This document shows, piece after piece, positions 6,481-20,183 of a stretch of DNA of 26,053 nucleotides; the stretch's first letter is position 1, and every line of letters starts with the position of its first letter. The notes under the pieces are model-generated. The model was not told the origin of the DNA, searched no databases, and was given only the letters and a program-made list of their open reading frames with translations. Both the position numbers and the translations under genes were made by a program. The stretch spans positions 1 through 26,053 of the IMG/VR virus record IMGVR_UViG_3300011114_000384, one strand, 5' to 3'. The DNA is from a virus.

Positions 6481-7419
6481 TTAGAATGTAATTGAACCAG
6501 ACGCTGTCCATGTGTAGACACGGTATCCACCTGCTACAGTTATGGTTGGTGAACCTGTGGTTGATGTGGCTGCTGCAAAGGTATCTGCGTATCTGATAAT
6601 AACGATACCAGAACCGCCTACGCCACCTGTGCTAACTCCGTTTCCAGAGCCACCAGCACCGCCGCCAGTATTTGCTGTGCCGTTTGCACCAGTACCACTG
6701 CTACTTCTACCAGCGCCACCACCACCAGCTCCACCAGAACCACCTGAACCGCCATTGGATGAGCCACCGCCACCGCCAGCATAAGTTACTGATGAACCCG
6801 AGATGGATGATGCTGTTCCAGCACCCCCAGCGCCGCCACTACTGCCTCCAGCATTGCCGCCAGTAGCACTCGCTCCACCGCCACCGCCAGCGGAATAATA
6901 TGCGGGATTCAAAGCGCCAGAGCCACCTGCATTTCCCTGTCCCAATGTACCAGAACCGCCAGCACCAGGCGATCCACCGCCACCCCCGCCACCGCCTGAT
7001 CCTCCTGAGTTTCCAGTACCGTCAGCAGAAGAACCACCACCGCCACCAGCAGAACTGATTGAACCAAAATCGGAGTTGCTTCCAGTACTTCCCTTATTGG
7101 ATTGAGTGCCGCCTGCACCTCCAGCGCCTACCGTGGCAGTAATTGGCGAGCCTGCGGTGACAGCAAGTCCTGTAGCCGTTCTAAAACCGCCAGCTCCACC
7201 ACCGCCGCCGCCTGTTACGCCATCACTGGACGACCCACCGCCGCCACCGCCACCACCAACAACTAAATACTCTACTGTAGGTGTGGGTAAACCAGACCAA
7301 GTGCCAGCAGATATATTCTGTATAGCCTCTTGCAGAGTCCAACGACCAGTTCCACCAACGGCAGTAGCAACGCTTCCTCCAGCAGCAGATTTTATACCAC
7401 CTTTATATCTTAGACTCAT
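6481..7419 (-). CDS. glycine-rich receptor-binding/adhesin protein
   Basis: A 312-aa low-complexity protein. After a short start (MSLRYKGGIKSAAGGSVATA) and WTLQEAIQNISAGTW, the segment VEYLVVGGGGGGGG begins a region of about 210 residues, nearly all Gly, Ser, Ala and Thr, with runs of four to eight Gly. It ends with GGSGIVIIRYADTFAAATST, SPTITVAGGYRVYTWTASGS. This frame is typical of phage glycine-rich tail proteins; by analogy with the T-even gp38 adhesins, the Gly-rich part may fold into packed polyglycine II helices with receptor-contacting loops. The protein is likely at a fibre tip. The reverse frames here are proline-rich by-products of the GGN codons, not genes. Confidence 0.75.
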   Translation of the reverse strand: MSLRYKGGIKSAAGGSVATAVGGTGRWTLQEAIQNISAGTWSGLPTPTVEYLVVGGGGGGGGSSSDGVTGGGGGGAGGFRTATGLAVTAGSPITATVGAGGAGGTQSNKGSTGSNSDFGSISSAGGGGGSSADGTGNSGGSGGGGGGGGSPGAGGSGTLGQGNAGGSGALNPAYYSAGGGGGASATGGNAGGSSGGAGGAGTASSISGSSVTYAGGGGGSSNGGSGGSGGAGGGGAGRSSSGTGANGTANTGGGAGGSGNGVSTGGVGGSGIVIIRYADTFAAATSTTGSPTITVAGGYRVYTWTASGSITF

Positions 7420-7823: not shown

Positions 7824-10055
7824 TTAAAGTCCAAAAACCATCGCCATAGCGATAGCCTTACCTGTTGTTGTAAATGTGCTTGCGTTACCATTTAGTTTTT
7901 GAATAGCTTGTAAAATACTATCCGTAGCAGCAACTGTTCCAGCCCCAGATGTGTAGCCAGTTAGAACTTTAGCAATAACTGGTGCATTAGTCAGCGTGGT
8001 AGCGTTTCCTACACTGGTAACATCCCCAGTCAAATTAGCATTTGTGACTACAGTTGCAGCATTACCGACAGAAGTGACTCCACCTGTCAGATTAGCATTT
8101 GTGGTTACAGTACCAGCAGTCAGTCCAGCAGCAGTCCCCGTACAGTTAGTTAATACACCACTTGCAGGAGTACCCAAAGCTGGCGCGACTAAAGTTTTAT
8201 TAGTTAGCGTATCAGTGGTTGCTTTTCCAACCAAAGTGTCGGTAGCATCTGGAAAGGTTAAAGTCCTAGCAACAGTCTGAATTCCAGCTAGGGTTAATAC
8301 CGTAGCGGTAGTAGCTCCGCTAGGGTCTATAGCGATTCTTTTTGTGCCATCAGTACCGTCTTGCACAACTACACGGCTTGTTCCCTTACCGGATAGGTGT
8401 AGTGCGACGTTAGTATCTGTACCTGTCGCGTATACGTGAGGGGGTAAGCCAGTAGCTGAGTTTTCAATAGTTACTTGGTTAACCGCACTTGCTATTGACG
8501 AAAACTTAACCTCGGCGTTACCGCTAGCATCATTAATCTGTGCTATAACTGGCGTAGTGATTGTGGGGCTAGTGCTAGCTACGTACGTAGCGCCAGTGCC
8601 TGTCGTGGTTAGGCTTAGCGTAATAGCTGGGGTGGTACTGGGTGTAGCAACTGTACCTGATACGCCGTTAGCTGTGACTACAGATACAGAAGTAACAGTA
8701 CCAGATCCAGAAGCTGCGGTATTACCGTTTAGCTTTTGAATAGCTTGTAGAAGCGTATCTGTAGCAGCTACCACACCAGCACCAGATGTGAAGCCAGTAA
8801 TGACTTTGCCAATAACAGCAGAGTTGGTCAGAGTAGTAGCGTTACCAACAGAGGTAGCTTCGCCAGTTAAGTTGGCATTTGTGACTACAGTCGCGGCATT
8901 GCCAACACTTGTCACCCCGCCTGTCAGATTAGCATTTGTGGTTACAGTCGCAGCATTACCAGTGGTATTTTGGTTTAGTGTCGGGAAATCGGCAGCTATG
9001 GCGATGGAAGGTACACCTGTTGTGGTGGTGTTCTTCAGAATACCAGTTGCCAATGTAGCGAATGATGTGCCGTTAACCTTACCAACCGTAGTTGAATTTC
9101 CAGTGGAAGTTACGTCCCCAGTTAGGTTAGCATTTGTGACTACAGTCGCAGCATTTCCGACTGAAGTAACTCCACCTGTCAGATTAGCATTAGTCGTTAC
9201 ATTACTAGCTGTAAAAGCGGTTGCAGTTCCTGTTATATTTGTACCTACAAGAGCTGTAGGAGTACCTAAGTTAGGCGTAACCAATATTGGGCTTGTATCT
9301 ACTACAAACTTAGTTCCAGTGCCTGTTTGAGAGGCTATAGATGTAGCATTTCCAACTGAAGTTATAGGGCCTGTCAGATTAGCATTAGTAGAATTATTTC
9401 CATCTAACTTCTGTATAGCCTGTAGAATATTGTCAGTGGCGGCAACTGTTCCTGCTCCAGAAACGTACCCCGTAATGACTTTGCCAATAACGGCGGAGTT
9501 AGTCAGAGTAACAGCGTTACCTGTCGATGTAGCTTCACCAGTCAAATTAGCGTTTGTTACGACTGTTGCAGCATTACCAACACTGGTGACACTACCTGTT
9601 AGATTAGCATTTGTGACTACAGTTGCAGCATTTCCGACTGAAGTAACTCCGCCTGTCAGATTAGCGTTAGTCGTTACCGTTCCAGCAGTCAGCCCTGCGG
9701 CTGTGCCTGTAATATTTGTACCTACAAGAGCAGAAGGCGTACCTAAAGCTGGTGTTACTAGAACAGGGCTTGTTGCTAATACTACCGCACCACTTCCTGT
9801 AACTCCGTTAGTTAACTGAGAAGCAGGTATGGCGATACTTGTCGTAGCTGCTGCGGTTAGTCTGCCCTGATTGTTAACGGTAAACGTGCCTACCGCAGTA
9901 GCTGATCCATACGCCCCTGCGGTTACAGCAGTCGCCGGTATTGAGTTACTAATAGCAACCTGGCTAGTGATACCCCCTTGTACTATAGGGAATACCTCCG
10001 TCCCCGTTAGGGGCGTAGTGGCTGCTGGTAACTGGGTAATCTTTTTATTAGCCAT
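7824..10055 (-). CDS. long repetitive tail fibre protein
   Basis: A 743-aa fibre. The N-terminus MANKKITQLPAATTPLTGTE, VFPIVQGG is a common virion-attachment start in environmental phage fibres. The body consists of repeated units: TNANLTG occurs 10 times, mostly followed by a variant of GVTSVGNAATVV; a longer block (SGAGTVAATDxILQAIQKLN) occurs three times; and LGTPxALVGTNITGTA, or a close variant, three times. About residues 440-640 are different (TLSLTTTGTGATYVASTSP, HLSGKGTSRVVVQDGTDGTK, TLTFPDATDTLVGKATTDTL) and contain the classic TFPDATDTLVG fibre motif. There is no visible intramolecular chaperone or enzymatic spike domain, and the C-terminus (TTGKAIAMAMVFGL) is short. Probably a trimeric shaft with adhesion supplied by the small proteins downstream. 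Confidence 0.82.
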   Translation of the reverse strand: MANKKITQLPAATTPLTGTEVFPIVQGGITSQVAISNSIPATAVTAGAYGSATAVGTFTVNNQGRLTAAATTSIAIPASQLTNGVTGSGAVVLATSPVLVTPALGTPSALVGTNITGTAAGLTAGTVTTNANLTGGVTSVGNAATVVTNANLTGSVTSVGNAATVVTNANLTGEATSTGNAVTLTNSAVIGKVITGYVSGAGTVAATDNILQAIQKLDGNNSTNANLTGPITSVGNATSIASQTGTGTKFVVDTSPILVTPNLGTPTALVGTNITGTATAFTASNVTTNANLTGGVTSVGNAATVVTNANLTGDVTSTGNSTTVGKVNGTSFATLATGILKNTTTTGVPSIAIAADFPTLNQNTTGNAATVTTNANLTGGVTSVGNAATVVTNANLTGEATSVGNATTLTNSAVIGKVITGFTSGAGVVAATDTLLQAIQKLNGNTAASGSGTVTSVSVVTANGVSGTVATPSTTPAITLSLTTTGTGATYVASTSPTITTPVIAQINDASGNAEVKFSSIASAVNQVTIENSATGLPPHVYATGTDTNVALHLSGKGTSRVVVQDGTDGTKRIAIDPSGATTATVLTLAGIQTVARTLTFPDATDTLVGKATTDTLTNKTLVAPALGTPASGVLTNCTGTAAGLTAGTVTTNANLTGGVTSVGNAATVVTNANLTGDVTSVGNATTLTNAPVIAKVLTGYTSGAGTVAATDSILQAIQKLNGNASTFTTTGKAIAMAMVFGL
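8030..9671 (-). repeat. coding repeats in the tail fibre gene (TNANLTG units)
   Basis: The gene carries ten TNANLTG units and three copies of a longer IQKLNGN block. At DNA level the copies are similar but differ at many third codon positions, so they are old or maintained by selection rather than fresh duplications. On the plus strand they appear as recurring cagattagca and gactacagt words. Confidence 0.8.
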
Positions 10056-14442: not shown

Positions 14443-14843
14443 TACGGGCCTAGCGTACCTAACCGCCTAACTTTACCTGCGTCCACATACTCTCGCGCCA
14501 TGCGGAATATATCTTCATCCGTCTTGGCCTTACCAGCTATCTCTAGCCCTAGCACGTTATTAAACGTATCCATGTCCTTTTCTTCTGGTGTCTGTCCTGG
14601 CGGCGCTCCGATTACAGGTAGCATACTTTCATGCAGTTTACCAACAGTTTCAGCATACTTGTTACCCTGCCGTTTAGCCAACATAGCTATACCTATTAAA
14701 TGCCGGTATGCGTCTCTATTCTGTAGCATTTCTGGCCCATATTCCGACTCAGCCCTTTTAATAGCATAAGTGTTGACAGAAAATGGGTCGGTTACAAAGC
14801 CAAACAGAGAGTTGCGGGTAGGAGGGGCGAGAGCATTAGCCAT
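14442..14843 (-). CDS. DUF6973-like protein between the terminase genes
   Basis: A 133-aa protein of unknown function lying between the small and large terminase genes. It contains QNRDAYRHLIGIAMLAKR (residues 41-58), HES (71-73) and DMDTFNNVLGLEIA (90-103). The spacing D-A-Y-R-H ... H-E ... D-x-x-N-N-x-x-G resembles the DUF6973 family as I remember it, which is widespread in bacteria and has an enzyme-like arrangement of Arg, His, Glu and Asn. The overlap of 8 nt with terS and 1 nt with terL and a good ribosome site (GGAAGGG) show that it belongs to the packaging operon. It might be a structural or packaging cofactor or an enzyme carried in the operon. Confidence 0.6.
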   Translation of the reverse strand: MANALAPPTRNSLFGFVTDPFSVNTYAIKRAESEYGPEMLQNRDAYRHLIGIAMLAKRQGNKYAETVGKLHESMLPVIGAPPGQTPEEKDMDTFNNVLGLEIAGKAKTDEDIFRMAREYVDAGKVRRLGTLGP

Positions 14844-15216
14844 CTATGACCCTTCCTTGTGCTTCGAGTAGTGCTTGAGTGATGCTGATTTTCTGGTATA
14901 CGTCAACAGATATTTCCTGCTTGGCCGTCCAACCGTATACGTGCTGTAGTATCGCTAGCGCTGCTTTCGCATCGCCTTCGCGGGCGGCTTCTCGGAGTTG
15001 CGTGGCGGCTTCTATCTCGCCATCTGCTCTACCCTTTAACGCCGCCATGTCTGCGAGTGGATCCATTTGGCATAGTTGTCTGTATTCGCTAGGTAACATA
15101 CCGGCGGCTAGCGCCAGGGAGTCACCTTTTAGCCCTATGTTAGCAGCGTCGTATATCTTCTGTAGCCTAGCTTCGGTGGCCTGTACTACTCTAGGACTGT
15201 AGGGTAATGATAGCAT
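14836..15216 (-). CDS. terminase small subunit
   Basis: A 126-aa, mainly helical protein. After the N-terminus, the stretch LKGDSLALAAGMLPSEYRQL (about 29-48) looks like a helix-turn-helix that would bind the packaging site. A helical oligomerisation region follows (GEIEAATQLREAAREGDAKA, ALAILQHVYGWTAKQEISVD). The segment ILQHVYGWTAKQEISVDV followed by a C-terminal helix ending EAQGRVIDG is common in small terminases of this kind. It is the first gene of the leftward virion operon. No clear ribosome site precedes the ATG, so initiation may be weak. Confidence 0.8.
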   Translation of the reverse strand: MLSLPYSPRVVQATEARLQKIYDAANIGLKGDSLALAAGMLPSEYRQLCQMDPLADMAALKGRADGEIEAATQLREAAREGDAKAALAILQHVYGWTAKQEISVDVYQKISITQALLEAQGRVIDG

Positions 15217-15281: not shown

Positions 15282-15658
15282 AATTTAGCCATAAAAAAAA
15301 ATTGTCTGCGGAACCAGCCGCGACCACACCACCAAGTCCAATGCCCTCCTTCCCCCCTCAATTTGAAAATTGCCATTTTCATAAAGCCCTATCGCAAACA
15401 GGGTCAATGATAACCATGCGAGCAACAAGGCCAAAGGTTGATCAATGATCCGCGGCCAAAATGGATATTGCTTTTCACCTTTTGCCTGGATAGTCATATA
15501 GTCAAATAGTCAGGGCATAGGTGTTAGCGCCAAGATTATAGTCATTGGATAGTCATCAATAGTCATTTGCATGACTATAGTTAAACTTATGATTACAAAC
15601 TAATAACAGGCATTTTTTAGCATTATAGTCAAATAGTCATCTGAAATGAAGTCTGCGG

Positions 15659-15674
15659 GCGCTACAGATAGCGC
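15659..15674. other. perfect hairpin GCGCTA-CAGA-TAGCGC beside the AT-rich tract
   Basis: A 6-bp perfect stem with a 4-nt loop, in a GC-rich patch directly before the AT-rich tract and inside the heptamer array. No U-tract follows. It could be a protein-binding or primer-start site of an origin; this is inference. Confidence 0.5.
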
Positions 15675-15697
15675 ACGCACACTACACCGCCGCCGTC

Positions 15698-15737
15698 TTA
15701 TATATATACATATATATTTATAAACTATAATAGAATA
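15698..15737. other. AT-rich tract, candidate DNA-unwinding element
   Basis: Forty bases with only three G or C, in a run of alternating TA steps, between a GC-rich hairpin and two heptamer boxes. TA-rich tracts of this kind melt easily and are the usual unwinding element of iteron origins. Immediately after it lies a 13-bp palindrome AATAGTGACTATT (15734-15746). Confidence 0.5.
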
Positions 15738-15851
15738 GTGACTATTTGACTATAATACCCGCCAGCCCAATGATACCAGCCTTTCCGCGATAGTCATTTC
15801 ACCCCCTTTCGATGACTATCCATGACCGAACAATGACTATTTGCACATTTG

Positions 15852-15891
15852 TTGACCTATGTCAAAGAATATCTTACAAAGTATGTATAAT
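15852..15891 (+). promoter_or_regulatory. predicted promoter of the small-gene operon with an inverted-repeat operator
   Basis: A consensus -10 TATAAT (15886-15891) lies about 33 bp before the first ATG. No good -35 is found at the normal distance. Instead an inverted repeat TTGAC-CTAT-GTCAA (15852-15865) ends 20 bp upstream of the -10, where an activator or repressor would act. A TGACTAT box lies just beyond. Confidence 0.5.
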
Positions 15892-15923: not shown

Positions 15924-16244
15924 ATGATTGACAATCTACAAACAATACACACACAAGCTATTGAATCAGCACAACAAGCTGCTCAAGACTACATCGAAAA
16001 GCATGGCGAGTCTGATTACTGCGGGTCTGCATGGGTTAAGATACAGGTGAAGGGTAGCACAAAGATGGGTAAGGCATTGAAAACAATGGGCTTTAAGCTT
16101 GCATGGGACGGTGGTTTGGATTTACGGAATCCAGCCGGGCATGGTACACAGAGCATGGATGTGGAGGAAGCAGGGGCATATGCGTATGCTGAGGTAATGA
16201 GAGGACATGGTGTTGATTGCTACGCACATTCAAGAGCAGACTAA
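15924..16244 (+). CDS. conserved phage protein of unknown function
   Basis: A 106-aa protein, first gene of the rightward operon. After a helical N-terminus (IHTQAIESAQQAAQDYIEKH) comes GESDYCGSAWVKIQ, then STKMGKALKTMGFKLAWDGG, LDLRNPAGHGTQSMDVEEAG and AYAYAEVMRGHGVDCYAHSR. The series CGxAWV...KxGKALKxxGF...LxxNPxGxxxQSxDxxEAGAxAxAEVxRxxGxxCYAxSR is one I know from early regions of many proteobacterial phages, always without known function. The strong ribosome site (AAGGGG) and consensus -10 suggest abundant early expression. It could bind nucleic acid or modulate a host protein, but no motif shows this. Confidence 0.7.
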   Translation: MIDNLQTIHTQAIESAQQAAQDYIEKHGESDYCGSAWVKIQVKGSTKMGKALKTMGFKLAWDGGLDLRNPAGHGTQSMDVEEAGAYAYAEVMRGHGVDCYAHSRAD

Positions 16245-16913: not shown

Positions 16914-17462
16914 ATGGATTCAAATATATTGCACGCAATGGCCACACTAGCAGCCAAAAAAGACATTCGCTATTATCTATGCGGGGTTCTGGTCGAATGG
17001 AACACAACAACTACGCGGATTGTGGCAACAGATGGCCATAAGCTTGGTATTTATAACCTGCCGGATCAGGATAATGAGACAAGCGGCAAGGTTATAATAC
17101 CACTTGAAGCGCTTGCTGGCCTAAAAGGTGATGTTATTATCGGGGCGACCACCTTAACCACGTCAGATAGTGTCAAAACATTTACGCCAATAGAGGGGCG
17201 CTTTCCAGATTATGCGAGAGTAACAGCAGCACGCGAGCCAAGCGGGATAGCAGGCCAATTTAACGTTGATTATATGGCACAATTTCAAAAAATAGCGCGT
17301 ATGCTGGGCAAAAAGACAGACGCGGCAGTATTTTACCATAATGGCGCGAATAATTCGGCTAGGGTATCGCTCACCAGCGACGACAAGTTTTATGGTGTGC
17401 TAATGCCTACCAAACTTGAATTGACCACTACTTGCGTAGATAATTTTATAGGAGCGATATAG
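16914..17462 (+). CDS. beta-sliding-clamp-like protein (DnaN homologue, shortened)
   Basis: A 182-aa protein with clear resemblance to bacterial DNA polymerase III beta. KDIRYYLCGVLVEW and IVATDGHKLGIYNLP correspond to DVRYYLNGMLFE and TVATDGHRLAV of the second domain of E. coli beta; VIIPLEALAGLKG and GRFPDYARV match the rest of that domain. QFNVDYMAQFQKIAR and a final FYGVLMPTKL correspond to the last half of the third domain (E. coli ends VVMPMRL). Normal clamps are about 366 aa with three domains, so this one lacks the first domain and apparently half of the third. The start is the ATG with GGAG at 9 nt; a longer in-frame start would run into the previous gene. It may make the phage or host polymerase processive, or interfere with the host clamp. 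Confidence 0.85.
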   Translation: MDSNILHAMATLAAKKDIRYYLCGVLVEWNTTTTRIVATDGHKLGIYNLPDQDNETSGKVIIPLEALAGLKGDVIIGATTLTTSDSVKTFTPIEGRFPDYARVTAAREPSGIAGQFNVDYMAQFQKIARMLGKKTDAAVFYHNGANNSARVSLTSDDKFYGVLMPTKLELTTTCVDNFIGAI

Positions 17463-17960: not shown

Positions 17961-17998
17961 TCGGTACGATTATACTGCTCGCAGTTTACTTATTATAG
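17948..17998 (+). CDS. 16-aa hydrophobic micro-ORF (doubtful)
   Basis: MLYLIGTIILLAVYLL is a bare hydrophobic helix, read from an ATG inside the 49-aa gene. Its last 29 bases are antisense to the 3' end of the primase-helicase gene. It is similar in style to the 21-aa and 38-aa hydrophobic peptides of this operon. The ribosome site (GGTGG) is weak. It may be chance. Confidence 0.3.
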   Translation: MLYLIGTIILLAVYLL

Positions 17999-20183
17999 GT
18001 TCACACAATCTACGCAATTCACTTTTTGAAGCGTCCACATTGGGCGCTTTAAAAACGTGCTTTTTAGTCGTATAATCCGCGGACGATAGTCGTCCACAAT
18101 CCACCCACCCTGCTTCCACTAACGCGTGCATTAATGCGCTTGGTGGTACTTTGCTATTGAGTCCAGTGGCCAGCCGGTCGCACAGCGCTTGAAATGGCGA
18201 TCCGATAACCCCACAGCTAAACTCACCCACACGCAAGCGCAGCATTTCCACAATGTGCGATTCTGACGCGCTCATGCCGTGTTCGACTAGCGATAGCTTG
18301 TATTCGGTCATTGGTGGGGGCGCGCCTGCTTTAAAGTGTGCCACATTGCGAGCGTGCAGCCAAGCGCCAATAGCTGAAAAGCCGCTAACGTTAAACCATT
18401 CCCACATTTTAGCGCCATCATCGGGCGTCATCTTGGGTGCGTGCGTCCATACGCACATCCAGCGCCTATCGGACGTGGGTAAGCTGATGGGTATGTAGTC
18501 GTTAGTAAATGCCAGGACTAGCAGCCGATTGCACATCATATAAGGGTGCAGGCCTTTACGGTTTATAGGTAGCATTTCAGGCGGGGCGGCAATGATGGGC
18601 TTTAACTTGTTGGCCAGTACGCGGCGCGTAGATGCGTCAGGTTCTTTTAACTCGTTGATAATCACTATTTCACTTTCTAACTGATAACCCCATTGGGACG
18701 TAGCTGAGTCGGAGTCCATAAGGCCGCGATTCTTTAGGCCATTGCCGCACACGGCGTGTATGAATGGGGCAAAAACTGTATCTTTTCCGCAGCCGTCCGT
18801 GCCACCCAACAAAATGGCGTGGTTAATCTTTATGCGTGGATTCTGAAGTTTGAAGGCCATAGCGTCAAATATGTGGTTACGGCTTACGTCGTCAGGGATC
18901 AGGTTTTCGCAATGAGTTAACCAGGGCGCTATGTTGCCTAGCGTGCATACAGGCCGTGCGTCGCGCCATCTATTGCCGTATACGTCCCCATCACGTGTTA
19001 CTAAAACAGAATCGCCGGCGGCGTACGTGATACCGACTAAGGCCTTCGCGCCCATGCTCTGCCTGTTCTCATCAAAGAACACGGACGCTTCAACACGCCT
19101 GCCGGTGTGTATGCTCTTACACTCCACATGGCGAAATAGGGCGTTGAAGGTGGCGCGTGATACTTCACGGCGATCCTGTAGATCGAAATAGGATTCATCA
19201 TCCTGTATATAGGCAAAGCGTTCGAACCACTTGGCGCGTTCGATACGGCCTAATTCTTTACGTTCGACTTCGGCTAGCGCGTCCACTTTGAACATATCGG
19301 ACGGGGTTAGCTTGGATAGGGCGGTTTCCATCACGGCGGCAAGCAACTCATCACGTAGGCCGTGGCCACACTTAATACCACTTTCCTGCTCTACCCATTG
19401 TAGGAATTTATGGCTGTCCCACTCGCTGCAATGCTCGTGCAGGCAGGTGTATGCGCGTGTAACCGGCATATAACGCCCTTCAGGATTGCCGTCTGAATGT
19501 TCGGCGTGGTTCGGACATAGTACGCCCCACCATCCTGCACTATTGCCACTCGCTAACAGATAACCGGCAGATTTTAGCCAAGCTAACACCTCATCCGTGC
19601 CGTCATCGGCAATGTCTATCCTATTGAGGGTGGAAGTGTCGGCTGCTTCAGGTACTACATTCAAGGCCGTGCAGATCTGGTCAAGAGTGAACTCACGCTC
19701 TGGGTGGAACTCTGTTAGCACACTCGCAAAGTTGTCGCGCCCAGGTTTTAGGTTTATAGATCCTGGAAGGCGAAAGTTGCGTACAGGGTTGATAGCCCCA
19801 CCATCCGTATAGCCTGCGTCTGCTATAGCCTTGATCGCTGCTGAGAAGTCTCCCTTGGTTGGTTGGCTGTCGAGCGCGAAGGTGTAGCCCCATTGATAGT
19901 TGTTGGGCGAGGTTTCCATTTTCCAAGTCGGCTCAAGCGGTGGGGTTGTGGATTTTGTGCCTACATCGTCCAACACCATGAAGCCCACGTGTTCGCAATT
20001 AGATGCGGATGCGGACGGTTTGCCGTCTATAAAGCGGTCAATGATAAACATGGCGGTGTTGCCGTACCATGCGCCTGCTGTCATTTTCTTACTAGGCAGA
20101 AAAGCAGGCCATGCTTTCGCTGCCTGCTTTACTATCAAGAATGTCTCGCCTTCTGGTGCAATATTGGTTAAATAGTTAATCAT
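17970..20183 (-). CDS. primase / superfamily 3 helicase fusion
   Basis: A 737-aa replication protein. The N-terminal part (about 1-165) resembles archaeo-eukaryotic-type phage primases: GFMVLDDVGTK (Asp 72/73), KMETSPNNYQWGYTFALD and FRLPGSINLK. A zinc-ribbon-like patch lies around Cys 223, His 226, Cys 247 and Cys 252. The helicase (about 450-620) has Walker A LLGGTDGCGKDT (458-469; Lys followed by Asp instead of Ser) and Walker B IVIINE (506-511). A C-terminal region (SALMHALVEAGWVDCGRLSS, then TTKKHVF) looks like a winged-helix DNA-binding domain. It would synthesise primers and unwind DNA, possibly recognising the origin. Its ATG overlaps the HNH gene stop (ATGA), with AGGAGA inside that gene. 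It ends convergently with the small-gene operon. Confidence 0.85.
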   Translation of the reverse strand: MINYLTNIAPEGETFLIVKQAAKAWPAFLPSKKMTAGAWYGNTAMFIIDRFIDGKPSASASNCEHVGFMVLDDVGTKSTTPPLEPTWKMETSPNNYQWGYTFALDSQPTKGDFSAAIKAIADAGYTDGGAINPVRNFRLPGSINLKPGRDNFASVLTEFHPEREFTLDQICTALNVVPEAADTSTLNRIDIADDGTDEVLAWLKSAGYLLASGNSAGWWGVLCPNHAEHSDGNPEGRYMPVTRAYTCLHEHCSEWDSHKFLQWVEQESGIKCGHGLRDELLAAVMETALSKLTPSDMFKVDALAEVERKELGRIERAKWFERFAYIQDDESYFDLQDRREVSRATFNALFRHVECKSIHTGRRVEASVFFDENRQSMGAKALVGITYAAGDSVLVTRDGDVYGNRWRDARPVCTLGNIAPWLTHCENLIPDDVSRNHIFDAMAFKLQNPRIKINHAILLGGTDGCGKDTVFAPFIHAVCGNGLKNRGLMDSDSATSQWGYQLESEIVIINELKEPDASTRRVLANKLKPIIAAPPEMLPINRKGLHPYMMCNRLLVLAFTNDYIPISLPTSDRRWMCVWTHAPKMTPDDGAKMWEWFNVSGFSAIGAWLHARNVAHFKAGAPPPMTEYKLSLVEHGMSASESHIVEMLRLRVGEFSCGVIGSPFQALCDRLATGLNSKVPPSALMHALVEAGWVDCGRLSSADYTTKKHVFKAPNVDASKSELRRLCEPIISKLRAV
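18023..18055. other. 14-bp inverted repeat at the convergent gene end
   Basis: TTTTTGAAGCGTCC and GGGCGCTTTAAAAA pair over 14 bp with two G-T wobbles around a 5-nt loop (ACATT). It lies within the last codons of the primase gene, just beyond the end of the opposing operon. The flanking tracts are T before and A after, so neither strand gives a classical U-tract terminator; it could still hinder readthrough or protect a 3' end. Confidence 0.45.

Follow-up and report, generated by a model that had tools for sequence, protein, structure and literature searches.

Phage P4 alpha is a primase-helicase with a C-terminal origin-binding domain and iterons (ori/crr), which resembles the system proposed here, except that the P4 iterons are longer and occupy two separate sites, unlike the array described below. 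PICI origins contain two sets of short iterons that flank an AT-rich region (PMC6092414), and in the SaPI/PICI Rep-ori systems (SaPI5 PriRep1, SaPIbov1 Rep and Gram-negative PICIs) the initiator is a helicase, of the D5 type in SaPI5. According to excerpts of a published report (PMC7581432), iterons are recognized by the C-terminal domain of SaPI Rep and by that of SCCmec Cch2, a D5-type helicase whose C-terminal domain on its own binds short repeats that lie downstream of the gene. The Cch2 repeats are three 5-nt iterons (AAGTG) in a different kind of element, and these excerpts describe no specificity switching. Origin specificity does swap among related PLEs, where a change of iterons gives escape from the origin-directed nuclease Odn of ICP1 (PMC8263062); the PLE initiator RepA is a RepA_N protein rather than a helicase, and its iterons are about 30 bp long. 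Origin recognition by D5-type self-loading helicases, and the joint change in specificity of an initiator and its iterons, are poorly known.

Here, we describe a 351-bp array of ATAGTCA heptamers in a 26,053-nt virus record (IMG/VR IMGVR_UViG_3300011114_000384), the whole of which was analyzed and is referred to as the window. As in SaPI/PICI origins, two iteron sets lie about an AT-rich region, the proposed reader is a helicase that would recognize them through its C-terminal domain, and the SaPI5 structures (7ola/7pds) match the fold of the window's helicase. By analogy, the system appears to work like a SaPI/PICI rep-ori, a kind of origin that is already known. SaPIs and PICIs are satellites, however, whereas the arrays here are in full phage genomes, and the window encodes virion proteins of its own, among them TerL and the portal (phrog_156). 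The SaPI origin is directly downstream of rep; here, 2.1 kb separate the array, which sits between divergent operons, from the helicase gene. For these reasons we do not file the locus as a SaPI/PICI rep-ori member. It also differs in the residue-to-base code seen across about 100 genomes. No account of this phage-wide array, of a switch in its specificity or of a residue-to-base code in a D5-type helicase turned up in the open-licence literature searched.

Results

The gene content of the window is that of a podovirus-like phage, with a portal protein, TerL, DNA polymerase A, a DUF5906 helicase, a PD-(D/E)XK nuclease and a small clamp-like protein. In this freshwater virus of bacteria, the array is most likely the place where copying of the DNA starts. 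Relatives have been binned with freshwater MAGs, e.g., of Rhodoferax and other betaproteobacteria, which hints at the hosts, phage-contig binning being weak evidence. Near-identical DNA was not found among named phages; the sole match, to MW202483, covered 16% of the query with 66% identity. A 743-aa protein encoded at 7824-10055 (minus strand) contains repeated NANLTG..TSVGNAATVVT units and is probably a repeat-built tail fibre. The 180-aa clamp-like protein (16920-17459, plus strand) matches the central domain of the DNA polymerase III beta clamp (PF02767) and also a phage processivity-factor family; it is present in the close relatives L124 and L125 and missing from the near-twin L126.

The array occupies positions 15490-15840 and contains 14 exact ATAGTCA heptamers, nine on the plus strand and five on the minus strand. 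A recount over the whole record agreed with the preliminary description, which had counted the same copies and met no other in a manual, non-exhaustive scan of the rest: no exact copy occurs outside 15490-15840 in the 26,053 bases. Its view that the density exceeds chance was likewise upheld, in that dinucleotide shuffles gave a mean of 3.66 copies per window and a maximum of 9, never 14, and the chance expectation for a 351-bp stretch is ~0.05 copies. Exact 8-bp steps are present at three places (15490/15498/15506, 15625/15633 and, inverted, 15739/15747), the remaining close steps being 10-13 bp. A perfect 18-nt inverted repeat, with arms 99 bp apart at 15622-15639 (ATTATAGTCAAATAGTCA, plus strand) and 15739-15756 (TGACTATTTGACTATAAT, minus strand), flanks an AT-rich tract (15698-15738); each arm consists of two tandem heptamers that point inward at the tract. 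The GC content at 15700-15749 is 14%, and the tract is likely an unwinding element. GC skew, computed in 1-kb bins over this partial record as the preliminary description had suggested, neither proves nor decides the origin.

The array adjoins a small-terminase-like gene (TerS; 14836-15216, minus strand) and sits between the leftward TerS-TerL genes and the rightward early genes, i.e., between divergent operons. Promoter-like sites numbered eight, compared with 3.1 in shuffled sequence. A palindrome, TTGACctatGTCAA (15852-15865), precedes a TATAAT (15886-15891) and the rightward gene at 15924; as a feature seen in the sequence only, it is a possible, weak candidate for an operator.

Relatives of the helicase were taken from viral contigs, and the DNA downstream of their helicase genes, over a stretch of at most 6.5 kb, was searched for arrays with a k-mer-based method in which the heptamer was not preset. 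Dense two-orientation heptamer arrays were found in most relatives, ~1-5 kb downstream of the helicase gene. An array was called in 103 of 113 loci having at least 4.5 kb of downstream DNA, part of these calls being other repeats; such calls, GC-rich or one-direction tandem repeats (e.g., L186, L194, L270 and L287), were excluded from the covariation set. The calls at the position equivalent to the window's array comprised about 90 distinct arrays. The array recurs with a heptamer that differs between phages (GTAGGCA, GTAGTCA, GTGGACA, GTGGGTA, ATTGTCA, ATTGGCA, TTAGTCA, TGGGTCA, TTCGGCA and TTGGGCA; GTTTACA in MW202483). In a common register the heptamers follow T-[G/a]-T-[A/G]-G-[G/T/A]-C-A, the family pattern is NNNGNCA, and positions 1, 3 and 5 are the most variable. 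AT tracts recur as well: under a strict facing-pair test, tandem pairs converged on a tract of at least 80% AT in 42 of 91 distinct arrays and were divergent in one. The commonest same-strand step in relatives was 9 bp (221 cases), followed by 8 bp (42) and 11 bp (40), so that the 8-bp steps noted in the preliminary description are real in the window and not the commonest in relatives, and the lattice or filament that it had built on them is weakened.

For a clade of helicases with a GSFEHSSKRH wing (L381-L409), the interval searched yielded no heptamer array that was consistent, and the origin of this clade may be organized differently. Long one-direction tandem repeats were observed beside or near the array in L152 (from 14904), L164 (from 15223), L165 (from 10120), L187 (from 12439) and L194 (from 7056), with units CAGGGCAGA, CAGCACC, ACCAGCAACC and GGCTGACC. 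An HNH-type homing-endonuclease-like gene is inserted between array and TerS in L125 (10935-11423), and the phage with GTTTACA arrays, MW202483.1 (L204), has a gene annotated 'dnaa protein helix-turn-helix' at 7083-7379.

Three close relatives were compared with the window. L126 is identical to the window in TerS (126/126) and nearly so in TerL (501/506, 99%), Pol (97%), SSB (99%) and exonuclease (96%), and its helicase, at 87.5% identity, is the single shared replication protein that diverged. Its helicase-to-TerS interval contains no ATAGTCA and bears GTAGGCA, GTAGGTA and GTGGGTA copies instead, in an array that is weaker than the window's, with 7 sites that differ from GTAGGCA by at most one base. 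The ATAGTCA array is retained in L124 and L125, with 8 and 11 copies in the interval; their helicases are 96-97% identical to the window's, and their polymerases are less alike (95 and 89%). From these comparisons, the heptamer tracks the helicase and not TerS, TerL or Pol. Conserved flanks beside a non-conserved array, which the preliminary description had regarded as evidence against its reading, are literally what L126 presents, but the array is not absent; its heptamer has switched along with the helicase. The L126 comparison alone first pointed to the helicase core (residues 481-510) as the part that sets specificity, a guess dropped when the larger set indicated the wing loop.

The 737-aa primase-helicase (17970-20183, minus strand) is of the DUF5906 D5/SF3 type; residues 460-574 match PF19263 (E=8.7e-9; 36.5 bits against a cut-off of 27.6). 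The array is 2.1 kb from its gene, with small early genes in between. AlphaFold2 modelled the full-length protein with a mean pLDDT of 84, and Foldseek matched it to the NrS-1 CTR (6k9c, E=5.7e-18) and to the SaPI5 primase-helicase (7ola and, with dsDNA, 7pds; E about 1e-6). The NrS-1 primase-polymerase/helicase (6k9c, 6k9e and 6lrb) is the closest solved structure by sequence (E=2.2e-10) as well as by fold and shares a C-terminal winged helix (618-718), at 15-18% identity to the window's helicase. Winged-helix matches and the AlphaFold2 models place a predicted winged-helix domain at residues 627-726 (18006-18305, minus strand). The H1-S1-H2-H3-S2-wing-S3 topology is present in the model at a pLDDT of about 87-90 (helices 639-650, 664-675 and 681-690; strands 659-661, 694-699 and 708-712; loop 700-707), and the domain folded alone reached about 85-94 per ten-residue block over its core. 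Foldseek with the wing domain alone gave no match at E<=0.001, and VIA-align Z-scores for it were below 7, at which only a shared winged-helix arrangement is shown. The presumed recognition helix (681-690) is much less variable than the wing loop (700-707).

The covariation analysis covered 95 array-associated helicases (effective number 48 at 95% identity) and used mutual information with average-product correction between 536 variable helicase columns and each heptamer position. The wing loop had been spotted by eye ahead of the statistics; the column ranking was unsupervised. Column 705 ranked first, 700 second and 702 third, all within the wing loop segment SSADYT (residues 700-705; 18069-18086, minus strand). 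The strongest pairings were those of residue 700 with heptamer position 3 (z 6.7) and of residue 705 with position 5 (z 5.8); the best partner of 702 was position 1. Lysine at 700 accompanied G3 in 30 of 30 cases from nine helicase clusters, methionine A3 in 9/9 from five clusters, and aspartate C3 in 3/3. Arginine at 702 went with G1 in 66 of 71 cases, spread over thirteen clusters, and aspartate at 705 with A5 in 24/28 and with A8 in 28/28. For helicases sharing under 85% identity, a nearest neighbour chosen by the 14-residue loop predicted the exact heptamer in 30% of cases, compared with 2% when the remainder of the protein was used for the choice and 5% for a random one. When the C-terminal domain was left out of tree construction, 702 changed together with position 1 on 10 branches (p=1e-8 among 2,370 tests, with p-values that ignore branch lengths). 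Several of the top co-change tests fall at 643-705, some non-wing columns score too, and helicase windows near 672, 594 and 335 are also high in the neighbour test with 10-residue windows, so part of the signal may still be phylogenetic. In the clade with GTAGKCA arrays, residue 713 in L148 numbering (696 in the window), as K/V or M, tracks G5 or T5 imperfectly (eta2 0.39, p 0.0005, best of 90 columns; exceptions L152, L176 and L178).

Rules derived from these pairs were fixed before new viral loci were fetched and before genome-contig loci were inspected for arrays. The held-out sample comprised 43 clusters less than 95% identical to the training set, and its register was set with positions 1, 3, 5 and 8 uninformative. 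R702 predicted G1 in 13 of 13 clusters (G1 overall, 14/43), and residues other than R predicted its absence in 29 of 30. K700 gave G3 in 11/11, and D/E700 gave C3 in 4/4, where the written rule named D only and E was one cluster. D705 gave A5 in 10 of 11, the single miss (L482) having GTGGACA copies amid another repeat; K/R/N/G705 gave G5 in 4/4, and T/Q/P705 gave T5 in just 11 of 17. The helicase of L339 shares no more than 70% identity with any helicase used for training; it has a KSRRHD wing, and its array, TGTGGACAA, matched the prediction. The rules predicted the arrays of both L339 and L484, held-out phages whose identity to the training set is only 70-75%.

Discussion

A TerS homolog is found in 82 of 94 relatives, and the adjoining small-terminase-like gene might suggest that the array is a pac site to which the small terminase binds, an arrangement found in some headful-packaging phages. 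The heptamer's identity follows the helicase wing, however, and L126 combines an identical TerS and a 99% identical TerL with a GTAGGYA array, which rules out TerS as the reader and leaves a pac site very improbable. It is also unlikely that the array serves mainly as an operator or enhancer at which the helicase or an early regulator controls the divergent promoters on either side. The position between the two operons and the excess of promoter-like sites would accord with such a role, but the convergent layout about the AT tract suits an origin. An early-gene regulator was rejected as the common reader because the array-bearing phages have no early gene in common in the stretch from helicase to array (gp15924 in 0/94, clamp in 15/94). 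The phage regulator offered as an alternative in the preliminary description is less likely as the sole explanation. Additional autoregulation by the helicase is possible.

Linkage might also account for the association, if helicase gene and array were exchanged together while another linked protein read the heptamers. The two are 2 kb apart in mosaic phages, and some columns outside the wing score, yet the top signal consists of three residues of one loop and is repeated over many clusters (K700-G3 in 9, R702-G1 in 13), arrays were predicted in the distant held-out phages L339 and L484, and no other shared protein is encoded in the interval. We therefore give hitch-hiking very little credence. 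In contrast, the recurrence of the array, the change of heptamer with the helicase and the coupled residues in the predicted wing support the primase-helicase as the reader through its C-terminal winged-helix-like part, as the preliminary description had proposed. We consider it highly probable that the 351-bp array is the phage's replication origin, with iterons bound by the primase-helicase via this domain.

In such a bipartite iteron origin, copies of the primase-helicase would bind the ATAGTCA iterons through their winged-helix domains. The inner tandem pairs at 15622-15639 and 15739-15756 face each other over the AT-rich tract, and by analogy with the SaPI Rep, SCCmec Cch2 and PICI origins, two helicase assemblies may load face to face there and melt the tract. 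The wing loop (700-705) would read the variable positions: position 1 through residue 702, position 3 through 700, and both position 5 and the flanking position 8 through 705. Recognition of the conserved G4, C6 and A7 might fall to conserved regions of the domain, an assignment suggested by the low variability of the recognition helix relative to the wing.

The covariation supports the C-terminal domain of the helicase as the putative determinant of iteron specificity. There is probably a compact code in which residues 702, 700 and 705 specify heptamer positions 1, 3 and 5/8, so that the origin can be predicted from the helicase, with many specificity switches within one lineage. With roughly a hundred natural helicase-origin pairs, many independent switches and few candidate specificity residues, the question of how initiator and iterons change specificity together becomes directly testable. 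The switching also raises the question of its driver, e.g., competing phages, satellites, or origin-directed nucleases such as Odn (PMC8263062). For metagenomic phages, such a code would make origins annotatable from protein sequence.
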